From assembly GCF_005222225.1 (NCBI RefSeq), contig NZ_CP036536.1, forward strand, positions 458,001 to 522,000: DNA of 64,000 nt. Direction: 5' to 3'. The notes under the pieces were generated by a model, which saw nothing but the letters and a program-made list of their open reading frames with translations, was not told where the DNA came from and did not search any database. The stretch is from Salinimonas lutimaris (GTDB lineage: Bacteria > Pseudomonadota > Gammaproteobacteria > Enterobacterales > Alteromonadaceae). Shown here piece by piece: positions 55,562 through 61,303 of this stretch (the first letter of the stretch is position 1; each line of letters starts with the position of its first letter). The translations under genes were made by a program, and so were the position numbers.

Positions 55562-56107
55562 ATGTCTGAAGAATCAAAGAAAAGATGGTACGTCGTACAG
55601 GCTTACTCCCAGTATGAGTCACGGGTTAAGAAAACCCTGCTTGAATACATCAAGATGCACGAAATGGAAGAGCACTTTGGTCAGGTTTTGGTACCTACCG
55701 AAGAAGTGGTTGAAATGCGTGCTGGTCAGAAGCGTAAATCAGAGCGTAAGTTCTACCCGGGTTACGTACTGGTAGAAATGGACATGAATGAAGATTCATG
55801 GCACCTGGTTAAGTCTGTACCGCGGGTACTTGGCTTTATTGGCGGTACATCTGACCGTCCTATGCCAATCTCTCAGCGTGAAGCAGATGCGATTCTGAAC
55901 CGCCTTGAAGAGTCGGTTGATAAGCCAAAGCCAAAAACATTGTTCGAGCCGGGCGAAGTGGTACGTGTTACCGATGGTCCGTTTGCCGATTTCAATGGTG
56001 TGGTAGAAGAAGTCGATTACGAGAAGAGCCGAGTGAAAGTATCGGTGCTTATTTTCGGTCGTTCTACCCCGGTCGACCTGGAATTTGGTCAGGTCGAAAA
56101 AGGCTAG
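55562..56107 (+). CDS. nusG: Transcription termination/antitermination factor NusG
   Basis: 181 residues. NGN domain ([42 protein letters not shown]) then a linker and the KOW domain ([19 protein letters not shown]). It couples RNA polymerase with Rho and ribosomes. A strong terminator follows, instead of rplK. Confidence 0.97.
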
Positions 56108-56169: not shown

Positions 56170-57183
56170 CTAGCGCTGAAACGCAGCCAGTGCATGGGTT
56201 GAGTCTACCTGAACATGTACGCGTTGTGCTGGGCTAAATACGTGTTCGTGGGATACCCGGGCCTTAACTTGCGTACCCGGCGCATCATCCAGAGCAACCG
56301 CGCATAGCCTGGAGCCGCCTTCAAAGCGCACCCATTCAACGGTACCATTAGCCGCATTGGTGTCGCACAGACGCACATCATCCGGGCGCAGCAATAAGTC
56401 TACCTCGCCGCTGGCATTATCAATGGCAATCCCTGGCGTGGCGCCAATACAGGTGCTGACAGCACCGTCACGCAGTGTTCCCGGTACAAAGCTGGCATCC
56501 CCCAGAAACTGGGCCACAAAGCGGCTGGCAGGCTTAGAAAAGCAATTTTCGGGGCTGTCAATCTGGGCCAGTACTCCTTTATTCAGTACACCAACCCGAT
56601 CCCCGATGGACAACGCTTCATCCTGGTCGTGGGTGACCCAGATGGCCGGGACGCCGGCGGTTTTTAACGCTGCCCGAATCTCCCAGCGCAGGCTGTCTTT
56701 CAGTGCCGCATCCAAATTTGATAAAGGCTCATCCAGCAGCACAAAGTCAGGCTCATGCGCCAGCGTACGGGCCAGTGCCACCCGTTGTTTCTGCCCGCCG
56801 GAAAGCTGGTCAGGCCGGGATTGGCGAAAGTCATTCAGACCCAGCAGATTGAGCCAGTGATCCGCCAGACCGGTGTCTTTTAAGCGAAAACACACATTTT
56901 GCTCAACAGTGAGGTGAGGAAACAGGGCAAAATCCTGAAATACCATACCCACACTACGCTTTTCCGGCGGCACCTGTTTATTCACAGCCGCCTGCCACTT
57001 GCCCATGGAAATCGTACCGCCGCTGATCGGAATCAGTCCGGCCAGCGCCTGCAAAATAGTGGTTTTACCACAGCCGGTAGGGCCAACCAGCATGAGTATT
57101 TCATCCTTACCCAGAGTCAGATCAAGCTGATTGACCACCAGGGTATCGCCATATCTGACGGACAGATCACTTACGGTCAGCAT
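56170..57183 (-). CDS. fbpC: Ferric iron ABC transporter ATPase FbpC
   Basis: 337 residues. Walker A GPTGCGKTT, signature LSGGQKQRVALART, Walker B FVLLDEPLSNLD, H-loop VTHDQDEA, then a TOBE-like C-terminal domain (LLLRPDDVRL). It powers import of Fe3+ delivered by FbpA through FbpB. It is the last gene of the minus-strand fur-boxed operon and is 10 nt after fbpB. Confidence 0.92.
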   Translation of the reverse strand: MLTVSDLSVRYGDTLVVNQLDLTLGKDEILMLVGPTGCGKTTILQALAGLIPISGGTISMGKWQAAVNKQVPPEKRSVGMVFQDFALFPHLTVEQNVCFRLKDTGLADHWLNLLGLNDFRQSRPDQLSGGQKQRVALARTLAHEPDFVLLDEPLSNLDAALKDSLRWEIRAALKTAGVPAIWVTHDQDEALSIGDRVGVLNKGVLAQIDSPENCFSKPASRFVAQFLGDASFVPGTLRDGAVSTCIGATPGIAIDNASGEVDLLLRPDDVRLCDTNAANGTVEWVRFEGGSRLCAVALDDAPGTQVKARVSHEHVFSPAQRVHVQVDSTHALAAFQR

Positions 57184-57193
57184 AGTGTCAGGG

Positions 57194-58708
57194 TTACTCC
57201 TTATTGAGCTTTAATTTATTACCGCCTTCACCGGTCAGCATAATCATCAGGCCCAGCCCGGACAGCAGCACCAGCATCAGACCGGGAATCGCCGCCGTGC
57301 CAAAATAGCCGGCTTCATACACATTCCACATGTAAGTGGCCAGTGTCTCAAACTCGTTAGGGCGCAGCATCAGGGTGGCTGGCAGTTCGCGCATCACTTC
57401 TAAAAACACCAGCGCTGCTCCGGCCACCATGCCCCGATAGGTCAGTGGCAGGGTTACACGCCGGAAGGCCTCTTTAGGCGAGGCGCCCAGTACCCGGGCC
57501 GCTTTTACCAGCGACGGGTCGAGCCGTTCGGCGGTGGTTCGCACCGAGCCCACTGCCAGCGGCAAATACCGAAGTACATAGGCGATCACCAGCATGGCGA
57601 TAGTCTGGTACAAAAACGGGAAGTATTTTAAGCCGGTGTATAGCAGGGCGGTGCCCATCACCACGCCGGGTACACCAAAACCAAAATAGGTGACCCGTTC
57701 CATCAGCCTGCCGGCCAGTCCGTGCGTCGCTGCATGGGCTACAGGAATAGCCACGCACACAGCAACCACGGCTGCCAGTAATGATACATAGGCCGAATTA
57801 AAGGCATAGGTCATATCAAAATCGCCAGCGCCATCTCGAATCAGCCACAAGGTGAACATACCCAGCGGTATCACAATTGCCAGCAAGACCCAGGGCATGC
57901 TGGCCAGTAACATAAGGTTACGCTGCCAGGGTTTGGGGTACAGCCAGAGTTGCCGCCCGGGACGTTCTTTGCCACCTTTGACCGAAGACTCAATGGCCAG
58001 TACCACACCCACAAAGACCAGCAACTGAATCGATAACATAGCGGCCTGGGGTAACCCGAATGAGTTGTATTCGACAAAAATAACCCGGGTAAAGGTATCC
58101 AGCCGCAAGATAGCGGGTGTGCCGAAATCTGACAGGGCATACAGCGCTGCCAGTAGTGCTCCGGCGGCAATCGCACGCATAATTCGGGGCAGTACAATCT
58201 TTATCAGACTGGCAGGCAGTGACATGCCCAGAGTACGGGCGGCATTAACCATGCTGCCGTCCAGACTCAGCAATGACGCCCGGGTGGTCATCATAACAAA
58301 CGGGTAGGTATAAATAGACATGACCAGCGCTGTGCCCCACAGGCCACTGATGGGCGGAGTACTAATGCCGGTTAGCTGTTCAATCTCGCCATTGTGGCCA
58401 AACGCAAAGTACAGGGTAAAGGCCCCGATATACGATGGCATAGCCAGCGGCGAGGCAAGCAATATCAGCCAGAAACGCTGCCAGGGCAGATTGACATAGG
58501 TGGTGAGTATGGCTAGCGGTACACCCAGTAACACCGAGCCGGCGATGGTCAGCACGACCAGGGCGGTGGTGTTGCCCAGTACCCGCAGGTTATGCGTGTC
58601 AAACATAGCGCTGGCATCAGATGCCAGCGAAAACAGCACGCTGAGCGGTAGTACCGCCAGCAGTGCAATAACTAATGCAAATGGATAAGATTTAGGGATG
58701 TGCCTCAC
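57194..58708 (-). CDS. fbpB: Ferric iron ABC transporter permease FbpB
   Basis: 504 residues, a fused double permease of about 12 membrane helices. Two EAA-type loops are visible: TLGMSLPASLIKIVLPRI in the first half and VLGASPKEAFRRVTLPLT in the second, where FbpC docks. It overlaps fbpA by 4 nt. The family covers iron and related polyvalent oxyanion importers; fbpA and the Fur box indicate iron. Confidence 0.92.
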   Translation of the reverse strand: MRHIPKSYPFALVIALLAVLPLSVLFSLASDASAMFDTHNLRVLGNTTALVVLTIAGSVLLGVPLAILTTYVNLPWQRFWLILLASPLAMPSYIGAFTLYFAFGHNGEIEQLTGISTPPISGLWGTALVMSIYTYPFVMMTTRASLLSLDGSMVNAARTLGMSLPASLIKIVLPRIMRAIAAGALLAALYALSDFGTPAILRLDTFTRVIFVEYNSFGLPQAAMLSIQLLVFVGVVLAIESSVKGGKERPGRQLWLYPKPWQRNLMLLASMPWVLLAIVIPLGMFTLWLIRDGAGDFDMTYAFNSAYVSLLAAVVAVCVAIPVAHAATHGLAGRLMERVTYFGFGVPGVVMGTALLYTGLKYFPFLYQTIAMLVIAYVLRYLPLAVGSVRTTAERLDPSLVKAARVLGASPKEAFRRVTLPLTYRGMVAGAALVFLEVMRELPATLMLRPNEFETLATYMWNVYEAGYFGTAAIPGLMLVLLSGLGLMIMLTGEGGNKLKLNKE

Positions 58709-59739
58709 AAAACGCCTACTTCACGCATCAATCCCAATGTTGGTCGTAAATCGGCCAGTTTGCGTAAATCCAGCTCAGGCGGAGTCAGACTGGCCATTGG
58801 CGGTAACCCCTGCGGAGCCTTGACCCCGTTAACCAGCGGAATCTCATACGCTTCTGAAGACAGATAAGCCTGAACCTCAGCAGATAACAGATAACGCATA
58901 AAGTTAAACGGCAGATCACCGTCAGTGAGGGACAATATGCCAGAGGCATTAACCAGACAGCCGGCATCGCCCCTGGTAAACGCCAGGTCTACATTAGCAT
59001 CCGGTTTACCCGCCTTAAGGCGTAATGTGTAGTAGTGGTTGGCAAAGCCAAGGTCGACTTCACCGCGCTCCACGGCCATCACCACGCCCAGTTCCCCGGC
59101 ATACTTGGTGGCGTGACGATTGACGCCGCGTAACCAGTTGGCGGTGGCTTTTTCGCCTTCTAAAATCCGCATAGCAGTAACAAACGACTGAAACGATGCG
59201 TAAGCCGGCGCCCAGCCAATCGACAGATCACTGTCGGCCAGGGCCATAATACTGTCAGGGATTTTGTCCGCGCTGAGTCGCTCGGTATTGTAGGGTAAGG
59301 TACGCACACGCCCGGTTACCGGCGTCCAGCTGGGATACTGAAAGCCGTCCTTAAGCTGACTGCTGATATCAGCCGGCAAGGGTTTAGCCAGGCCTGCATC
59401 AGTAATAAGTCCGATGGACCCGGTGTCTACCGCCCAGAACAAATCTGCCCGCTTAACCCCAGCCTGCGCTTCAGCTATCAGGGTATTGGCCAGAGCAGCG
59501 GTTGCACCCCGGCGAATTTCCAGATTGAGCTTCGGATTGCGCTGACGGATGGCCTGCAATACATTTTCGTACAGACCACCTTCACCACGACCCAGATATA
59601 ATGTCAGATCCCCAGCTAACTCGGGCAGGTTGTTAACTGACACGGCTGAAGCAACAGCAGCTTCACTGCGGGCGCCAAACGGCAAAGCCGATAATGCACC
59701 GGCAGCCGCCAGCGATTGCAGAAAGGTTCTACGCTGCAT
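58705..59739 (-). CDS. fbpA: Periplasmic ferric iron-binding protein FbpA (FutA-like)
   Basis: 344 residues. A Tat-type signal starts QRRTFLQSLAAAG (twin arginine), so it may be exported folded. The iron-binding tyrosine pair is Y236-Y237 in FANHYYTLR, as in FbpA/FutA proteins, and LTLYLGRGEGGLYENVLQA matches the ferric-binding N-lobe. It hands Fe3+ to FbpBC. It starts 13 nt after the end of the unknown first gene. Confidence 0.92.
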   Translation of the reverse strand: MQRRTFLQSLAAAGALSALPFGARSEAAVASAVSVNNLPELAGDLTLYLGRGEGGLYENVLQAIRQRNPKLNLEIRRGATAALANTLIAEAQAGVKRADLFWAVDTGSIGLITDAGLAKPLPADISSQLKDGFQYPSWTPVTGRVRTLPYNTERLSADKIPDSIMALADSDLSIGWAPAYASFQSFVTAMRILEGEKATANWLRGVNRHATKYAGELGVVMAVERGEVDLGFANHYYTLRLKAGKPDANVDLAFTRGDAGCLVNASGILSLTDGDLPFNFMRYLLSAEVQAYLSSEAYEIPLVNGVKAPQGLPPMASLTPPELDLRKLADLRPTLGLMREVGVL

Positions 59740-59752
59740 ATAACACTAATCC

Positions 59753-60556
59753 TTAAAACACGTCTTTGCGGTTTTGTTCTGCTTCAACCAGCAGCTTTCT
59801 GGCCTTGGCAAGTTTATTTTTCATCGTTTCAACAATGCTGCGCACTTTATCTACGCTGGTTTTACCATCAAGCGCCTGTGGCAACGTGACGTTGAAGTCT
59901 TTTTCCAGATCTTCAACCAGGTCAGCATCCTGTTCAATCAGGGCGCCTTCAATACCTTCAAAACGTTGCAGGTAGGCATCATGTACCATGGTAGTGGCCA
60001 CTTCGGTTAACTGCTCAGCATATTTAGCCACGACCTTATCCAGACGTTTCTCAATATCGTCAATCACAGCCGGCGCGGTGGTAGGTTCCTGCTCGGTGGT
60101 CTGAACCTTGGCAATCACACCTTTATCCTGATAATGGGCTGCCACTTTAACCGCCCCCAGCGCCTGCCATAAAGCCTGATTCAGTTTTGACTGCTCAGCG
60201 CGCAGTGTGGCGACATCAGCACCTTCTTCAATGGCGGTTTTCATGCCATAAATGCCTTGCCAGATGGTCGCGTAAATCGGAATGTATTGTGTTTCGATTG
60301 CCGAGTGGAAGTTTACTTCTTCCCAGTAATCAATCAACTGTTGCGTATCGGTTTGTTTACCTTTCTTTGTATAGGTGGTCACCACACCGTCATATTTTTC
60401 TACCAGCCAGCTCACTTCTTCGCTGTATTCGCCTAAGTGCGCTTTCAAGTGATTAACCTGATCGGTCACTACGCCATTAGCGCTAACAACAGTAGGCAGG
60501 GCGGTCAGGGAGAGGCCAAACGCAATGCTGGCAAGAAGGGTCTTTGCTGTTTTCAT
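59753..60556 (-). CDS. Unrecognised exported helical protein, first gene of the Fur-boxed iron operon
   Basis: 267 residues. A signal peptide ends at about 26 (LPTVVSA-NG). The mature protein is highly charged and helical, with no transmembrane segment. Landmarks are YWEEVNFHSAIETQYIP (acidic and His residues, a possible metal site), QALWQALGAVKVAAHYQDKG and a coiled-coil C-terminus ending RKDVF. I do not recognise the family. Position directly under the Fur box and before fbpA argues for a periplasmic iron-related role such as binding or delivery, but this is inference. It is the first gene of the operon and 13 nt before fbpA. Confidence 0.78.
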   Translation of the reverse strand: MKTAKTLLASIAFGLSLTALPTVVSANGVVTDQVNHLKAHLGEYSEEVSWLVEKYDGVVTTYTKKGKQTDTQQLIDYWEEVNFHSAIETQYIPIYATIWQGIYGMKTAIEEGADVATLRAEQSKLNQALWQALGAVKVAAHYQDKGVIAKVQTTEQEPTTAPAVIDDIEKRLDKVVAKYAEQLTEVATTMVHDAYLQRFEGIEGALIEQDADLVEDLEKDFNVTLPQALDGKTSVDKVRSIVETMKNKLAKARKLLVEAEQNRKDVF

Positions 60557-60586: not shown

Positions 60587-60609
60587 AAAATGATACTTAT
60601 TATCATTTT
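60587..60609. promoter_or_regulatory. Fur box for the iron operon
   Basis: AAAATGATA-CTTAT-TATCATTTT has perfect 9-bp arms and fits the 7-1-7 Fur consensus (TGATACT-T-ATTATCA, one mismatch to TGATAAT-N-ATTATCA). It overlaps the -10 and spacer of the operon promoter, the right place for repression by Fe-Fur. Confidence 0.85.
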
Positions 60610-60618
60610 GCTAGTAAA
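60590..60618 (-). promoter_or_regulatory. Promoter of the fbp operon
   Basis: On the minus strand: TTTACT (60618-60613), 17 bp, TATCAT (60595-60590), 34 nt before the start codon of the first gene. Five of six -10 bases match. Confidence 0.65.
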
Positions 60619-60874: not shown

Positions 60875-61303
60875 ATGGCAAAGAAAGTAACAGGCTTAAT
60901 CAAGCTACAGGTTGCGGCAGGTGCTGCTAACCCAAGTCCACCAGTTGGTCCTGCACTGGGTCAGCATGGTGTTAACATCATGGAATTCTGTAAAGCTTTC
61001 AACGCGAAAACCGAAAGCTTAGAGAAGGGTGCTCCGGTACCAGTAGAAATTACTGTATACGAAGACCGTTCTTTCACATTCGTAACAAAAACGCCTCCTG
61101 CTTCATTCCTGCTGAAAAAAGCGGCTGGAATCAAGAGCGGTTCAGGCCGTCCTAACACTGAGAAAGTGGGTACAGTTACCCGTGCTCAATTGGAAGAAAT
61201 TGCCAAGACTAAAGAGCCGGACCTGACTGCAGCTTCTCTGGACGCAGCAGTACGCACAATTGCGGGTTCTGCTCGCGCAATGGGCTTGAACGTAGAGGAC
61301 TAA
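60875..61303 (+). CDS. rplK: 50S ribosomal protein L11
   Basis: 142 residues, standard. N-terminal [32 protein letters not shown] and the C-terminal rRNA-binding domain are intact. It sits at the GTPase-associated centre and is needed for RelA activation. Followed 4 nt later by rplA. Codon use is that of a highly expressed gene. Confidence 0.98.

Follow-up and report, generated by a model that had tools for sequence, protein, structure and literature searches.

A putative soluble FTR1-type periplasmic module encoded at the head of an FbpABC ferric iron importer operon in Salinimonas lutimaris

The four-gene iron operon and its conservation

The window, a stretch of 64,000 nucleotides of the Salinimonas lutimaris genome, contains a compact four-gene unit on the reverse strand, arranged in the order X-fbpA-fbpB-fbpC. 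The first gene of the operon (59753..60556, −) encodes an apparently exported helical protein of 267 residues, which we call X. The gene for the ferric-binding protein FbpA (58705..59739, −), which bears a Tat-type RR signal and an ANHYYTLRLK motif, begins 13 nt after the end of X. It overlaps by 4 nt with fbpB (57194..58708, −), encoding a two-module ABC permease in which PF00528 is matched twice. A gap of 10 nt separates fbpB from fbpC (56170..57183, −), which encodes an ABC ATPase with a TOBE domain (PF00005, PF08402). The joint presence of a ferric-binding protein with a Tyr-Tyr motif, a two-module permease, and an ATPase identifies the operon as FbpABC-type. Compared with PDB sequences, FbpA has only ferric-binding proteins as its best relatives (7w3w, E 1e-44; 3wae, 4e-40; HitA 6iwf, 1e-31). 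A preliminary description of the locus had proposed that an exported helical protein heads an FbpABC operon, and this is borne out by an open reading frame that occupies exactly 59753-60556 on the reverse strand, by its Sec-like N-terminus, and by an all-helix structural model.

A Fur-box-like palindrome, CAAAATGATAATAAGTATC, is located upstream of X (60592..60610, −). It agrees with GATAATGATAATCATTATC at 15 of 19 positions, a score equalled in 0 of 200 shuffles. Of 24 other loci, 13 have a comparable site ahead of X, equalled by no more than 2 of 200 shuffles; the site is kept in approximately half of the relatives, and elsewhere the similarity is lower or does not exceed chance. In the window, a promoter-like sequence overlaps the site, but it is no better than chance predicts.

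The operon (56170-60556) is inserted between nusG (55562-56107) and rplK (60875-61303), on the strand opposite to them, and interrupts the nusG-rplKAJL-rpoBC block, whose genes are usually contiguous. Three loci from Salinimonas and Alteromonas indica (L001-L003) show this insertion too, and it is missing from L004 and more distant relatives.

Genome searches identified 25 further full-length homologues of X, with identities of 28-72% among the set. Directly downstream of every one of them (25/25) are fbpA, fbpB, and fbpC, in this order. The loci span at least seven families, and the genes flanking the cassette are unrelated between lineages. Because the order within the cassette is fixed while its flanks differ, conservation is that of the four genes as a unit. 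The protein is annotated as a "hypothetical protein" in Pseudoalteromonas, which has the same operon. X occurs in 13 of 119 Alteromonadaceae genomes, and FbpA (E ≤ 1e-20) is found in the same 13. Among 369 gammaproteobacterial genomes, X is present in nine, and exactly these nine encode FbpA detected at E < 1e-100, the next-best FbpA of that set having an E value of 8e-41. The neighborhood analysis suggested in the preliminary description thus ties X to one clade of FbpA, and no homologues located away from iron genes were encountered. Outside the clade, the three FbpABC loci closest to it (L119-L121) contain fbpABC and no X; L119 is weaker evidence for the absence of X because its contig ends upstream of fbpA. 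Pairwise distances of X and FbpA are correlated with r = 0.93, compared with 0.91 for fbpA and fbpB, and since the pairs are not independent, the correlation serves as supporting evidence only. The FbpA proteins of the clade (26/26) all carry the Tat-type RR motif together with ANHYYTLRLK or a version differing in one letter. Export of X and of FbpA to the periplasm therefore probably proceeds by separate routes.

At one of the loci (L122, genome G652), a gene for an azurin/plastocyanin-type cupredoxin (L122:3946-4398, −; PF00127, E 7e-25) follows fbpC on the same strand after 35 nt. The arrangement was seen in this genome only, and the cupredoxin is a possible redox partner.

Architecture of X and its relationship to FTR1 permeases

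X is composed of a signal peptide, an N-terminal helical bundle, and a C-terminal helical bundle. The signal peptide (residues 1-26; 60479..60556, −), read by eye from the N-terminus MKTAKTLLASIAFGLSLTALPTVVSANG, appears to be of the Sec type, with an AxA-type cleavage site at about A26/N27 and no lipobox cysteine; this part of the protein is poorly conserved and has low pLDDT. The N-terminal bundle (residues 27-150; 60107..60478, −) is specific to the X family, and its residues Y44, Y62, H84, E88, and Y95 are invariant in the alignment of 25 X proteins. The C-terminal bundle (residues 151-267; 59756..60106, −) contains the signature Y195-x3-F199-E200-x2-E203-x6-D210-x7-E218 (59903..59974, −), a carboxylate-rich candidate iron site that is invariant across the 25 X proteins. 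The AlphaFold2 model, calculated from a six-sequence alignment, is of moderate quality (mean pLDDT 78, pTM 0.57) and contains ten helices arranged in two helical halves. The preliminary description had pointed to acidic and histidine residues in the stretch YWEEVNFHSAIE. The stretch is real and encloses the His/Glu pair H84-S-A-I-E88 (60293..60307, −), whereas the acidic signature that X and iron permeases have in common is found elsewhere, at Y195-E218. Comparison of the N- and C-terminal halves of X by hhalign gave a probability of 40% (E 3e-4), which is no more than suggestive of an internal duplication; the profile similarity of the N-terminal half to the first repeat of FetM or to the C-terminal half of X itself is only weak.

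Searches of Pfam, NCBIfam, PHROGs, and PDB sequences provided no credible family match for X, and hence no confident match to a family unrelated to iron. The earlier statement that X belongs to no recognized family holds for these four collections, but not for its C-terminal half, which has relatives among FTR1 permeases, as described below. No X was found in the phage records searched. A match to designed ankyrin repeats in the PDB (4e-6) was rejected as a composition artefact, each copy of the repeat being insignificant alone, and matches to designed chlorophyll proteins were dismissed on the same grounds. Matches to DUF7399 and cytochrome b562 in a few homologues were weak and inconsistent, and we consider them generic helical similarity. 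Fold searches yielded nothing beyond helical bundles of a generic kind (NarX-type sensors, vinculin, and b562-fused receptors), none of which stood clearly above the rest.

It is very unlikely that X is a divergent imelysin or EfeM protein (peptidase family M75), which would combine helical bundles with HxxE and ExxE-D-E sites as in EfeUOB uptake. Imelysins are built of two four-helix bundles and contain a GxHxxE motif (PMC3143127), and EfeM/EfeO proteins have an ExxE-D-E metal site (PMC9174327). These motifs resemble E200xxE203...D210...E218 and H84/E88 of X, and the Foldseek search returned weak matches to EfeM and Algp7 (7q1g, probability 0.23; 3at7, probability 0.38). However, X does not match the Pfam model of the family (PF09375) at E ≤ 1, and its hhalign probability against imelysin-type and EfeO-type alignments is below 1%. 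Furthermore, the sequence N82-F-H84-S-A-I-E88 represents HxxxE rather than HxxE, and the glycine of the imelysin motif is missing.

FTR1/FetM proteins are iron transporters (PMC10783030, PMC7285068). With X alone as the query, weak matches (2e-5 to 2e-4) were obtained in open reading frames of about 663 residues, one of which (L019) is a cytochrome c-FTR1 permease. A profile built from 25 X sequences (A2) was run over 398 Pseudomonadota genomes, and matched five X orthologues and otherwise only open reading frames of 625-807 residues, with E values down to 7e-14. The latter carry RExxE membrane segments, and many of them coincide with places matched by the FTR1 family PF03239. Judged by sequence, they are FTR1 permeases of the FetM and cytochrome c types. 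The stretch matching X is positioned just before the first membrane segment, and FetM-type proteins contain at least two copies of the C-terminal domain of X. In the FetM-type proteins L086, L088, and L090, residues ~30-130 and 210-390 hold two, perhaps three, such copies in tandem.

Profile-profile comparison of X with the cytochrome c-FTR1 proteins gave a probability of 97% (E 5e-11) over 105 columns, and in the comparison with the FetM type two distinct repeats reached 97% and 96%. For the reciprocal search, we used a profile of 12 FTR1 domains (A4), which includes no X sequence, the domain boundaries having originally been located using X. X was the top match in 17 of 17 X-bearing genomes, with E values from 7e-12 to 2e-19 (2e-17 in the genome of the window); the best match other than X in any genome had an E value of 0.009. 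Among the 2373 open reading frames of the retrieved loci, this profile recovered all 25 X proteins and nothing else. When X and the FTR1 domains are aligned, Y195, F199, E200, E203, and E218 (X numbering) are invariant, and D210 is conserved in at least 90% of the sequences. Both the reciprocal homology and the Y-x3-F-E-x2-E-x6-D-x7-E signature indicate, at the level of sequence, that residues 151-267 of X and the juxtamembrane periplasmic domain of the long FTR1/FetM permeases are homologous. The Pfam release searched contains no model of this helical domain. X itself is not an FTR1 permease, as it lacks both a PF03239 match and the transmembrane FTR1 domain, and is predicted to be soluble. 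A genome search identified no FTR1 protein anywhere in the genome of the window, and X is therefore not a copy of a local FTR1 protein.

Proposed role of X in periplasmic iron handling

We propose that X is probably a soluble, stand-alone FTR1-type periplasmic module with an extra N-terminal bundle, which acts as the fourth component of a Fur-regulated FbpABC ferric importer. Since X always travels with the fbpABC operon, its most likely place is in periplasmic iron handling ahead of FbpA, and its most likely function is that of an iron-binding donor to FbpA. The obligate linkage to the fbpABC clade and the homology to the FTR1 periplasmic domain lend good support to the suggestion of the preliminary description that X is a partner of FbpA in iron uptake. 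Under iron limitation, the repression by Fur would be lifted and the operon expressed. X would be exported by the Sec route, and FbpA, already folded, by the Tat route. In the periplasm, X may capture iron at the carboxylate site formed by E200, E203, D210, and E218, probably with the help of H84 and E88 from the N-terminal bundle. Subsequently, it would hand the iron, in ferric form, to the Tyr-Tyr site of FbpA, from which FbpBC would import it. Several points count against this proposal: the H84/E88 pair belongs to the N-terminal half of X, which has no clear counterpart in FTR1 proteins, the structural model behind a joint site of the invariant residues is of moderate quality, and the Fur-box match is weak or at chance level in approximately half of the relatives.

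It is unlikely that X renders FbpABC import oxidation-coupled, in that the module would oxidize Fe2+, or accept iron from an oxidase, and load Fe3+ onto FbpA. If this were true, a single periplasmic iron-loading module would work for FTR1, a secondary permease, as well as for an ABC importer, two unrelated machines. It is likewise unlikely that X is a ferroxidase or redox module that binds Fe2+ at a carboxylate/His site, promotes the oxidation of this iron, and supplies FbpA with Fe3+. An ordinary ferric importer would thereby become Fe2+-fed, much like FTR1 permeases coupled to iron oxidation. Ferritin-like ferroxidases typically have carboxylate-rich sites accompanied by histidines within helical bundles. 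The homologous domain is found in oxidase-dependent iron transporters, one class of which has it behind a c-type cytochrome in the same chain, and the cupredoxin gene downstream of fbpC at L122 offers a hint in the same direction. Nevertheless, the ferritin-like two-iron signature (paired Glu and ExxH) was not seen in X when inspected by eye, X contains no cytochrome or copper motif, and the cupredoxin accompanies only one of the loci examined.

Alternatively, X could act without contacting iron, as a structural or assembly partner that, for example, docks FbpA on FbpB or senses iron-loaded FbpA; the FTR1 domain would likewise be a docking or gating element. The residues common to X and FTR1 could then be structural, and similar helical bundles form periplasmic sensor domains (NarX, KinB, and others), a likeness that may only reflect a common arrangement. 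We nevertheless consider this unlikely, because the strictly conserved positions of X are mostly Glu, Asp, His, and Tyr instead of residues of a hydrophobic core. Moreover, the conservation spans FTR1 and ABC systems, of which iron is the only evident common element.

Among the elements of this system, FbpABC importers are already known, as are FutA-type proteins exported by Tat (PMC6254336) and permeases of the FetM/FTR1 kind (PMC10783030, PMC7285068). We found no description of X in the open-access literature searched, where absence is no proof that none exists, and no established function of the FTR1 periplasmic helical domain in the literature searched. Therein, a soluble FTR1-type module as an obligate fourth component of FbpABC was likewise not found. 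Because the module occurs free, soluble, and obligately with an ABC ferric importer, its job appears separable from the FTR1 channel. This job would be common to two unrelated transporters, and X is a small soluble protein in which it could be tested directly.

Comparison with known iron transport systems

FbpA, FbpB, and FbpC of the operon are, by sequence, members of the FbpABC/HitABC/FutABC importers, and FbpA has their Tyr-Tyr motif. In contrast to other importers of this group, the studied clade always has a fourth gene, X, in the leading position. The Tat-type signal of the clade FbpA proteins has a counterpart in FutA (Trichodesmium Tery_3377, PMC6254336).

EfeO/EfeM and imelysins are helical periplasmic proteins of iron-uptake systems, as X is proposed to be; their acidic ExxE-D-E and His-Glu sites resemble residues of X in sequence, and EfeO accompanies a short FTR1 protein, EfeU. 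However, they have no detectable sequence relationship to X, and the spacing of their motifs differs. As no relationship to EfeO or imelysins could be shown in sequence, we treat the resemblance as an analogy. The fold of P19/FetP is different and β-rich, whereas X is all helical and is matched by no such Pfam family. What X has in common with P19/FetP is being a soluble periplasmic partner of an iron transporter (PMC10783030).

The long FTR1 permeases, FetM of the FetMP system and cytochrome c-FTR1, have the juxtamembrane helical domain and the signature in common with residues 151-267 of X. Unlike these permeases, X is devoid of the transmembrane FTR1 domain, the RExxE segments, and the cytochrome; it adds an N-terminal bundle of its own with the H84/E88 pair, and appears to serve an ABC importer.
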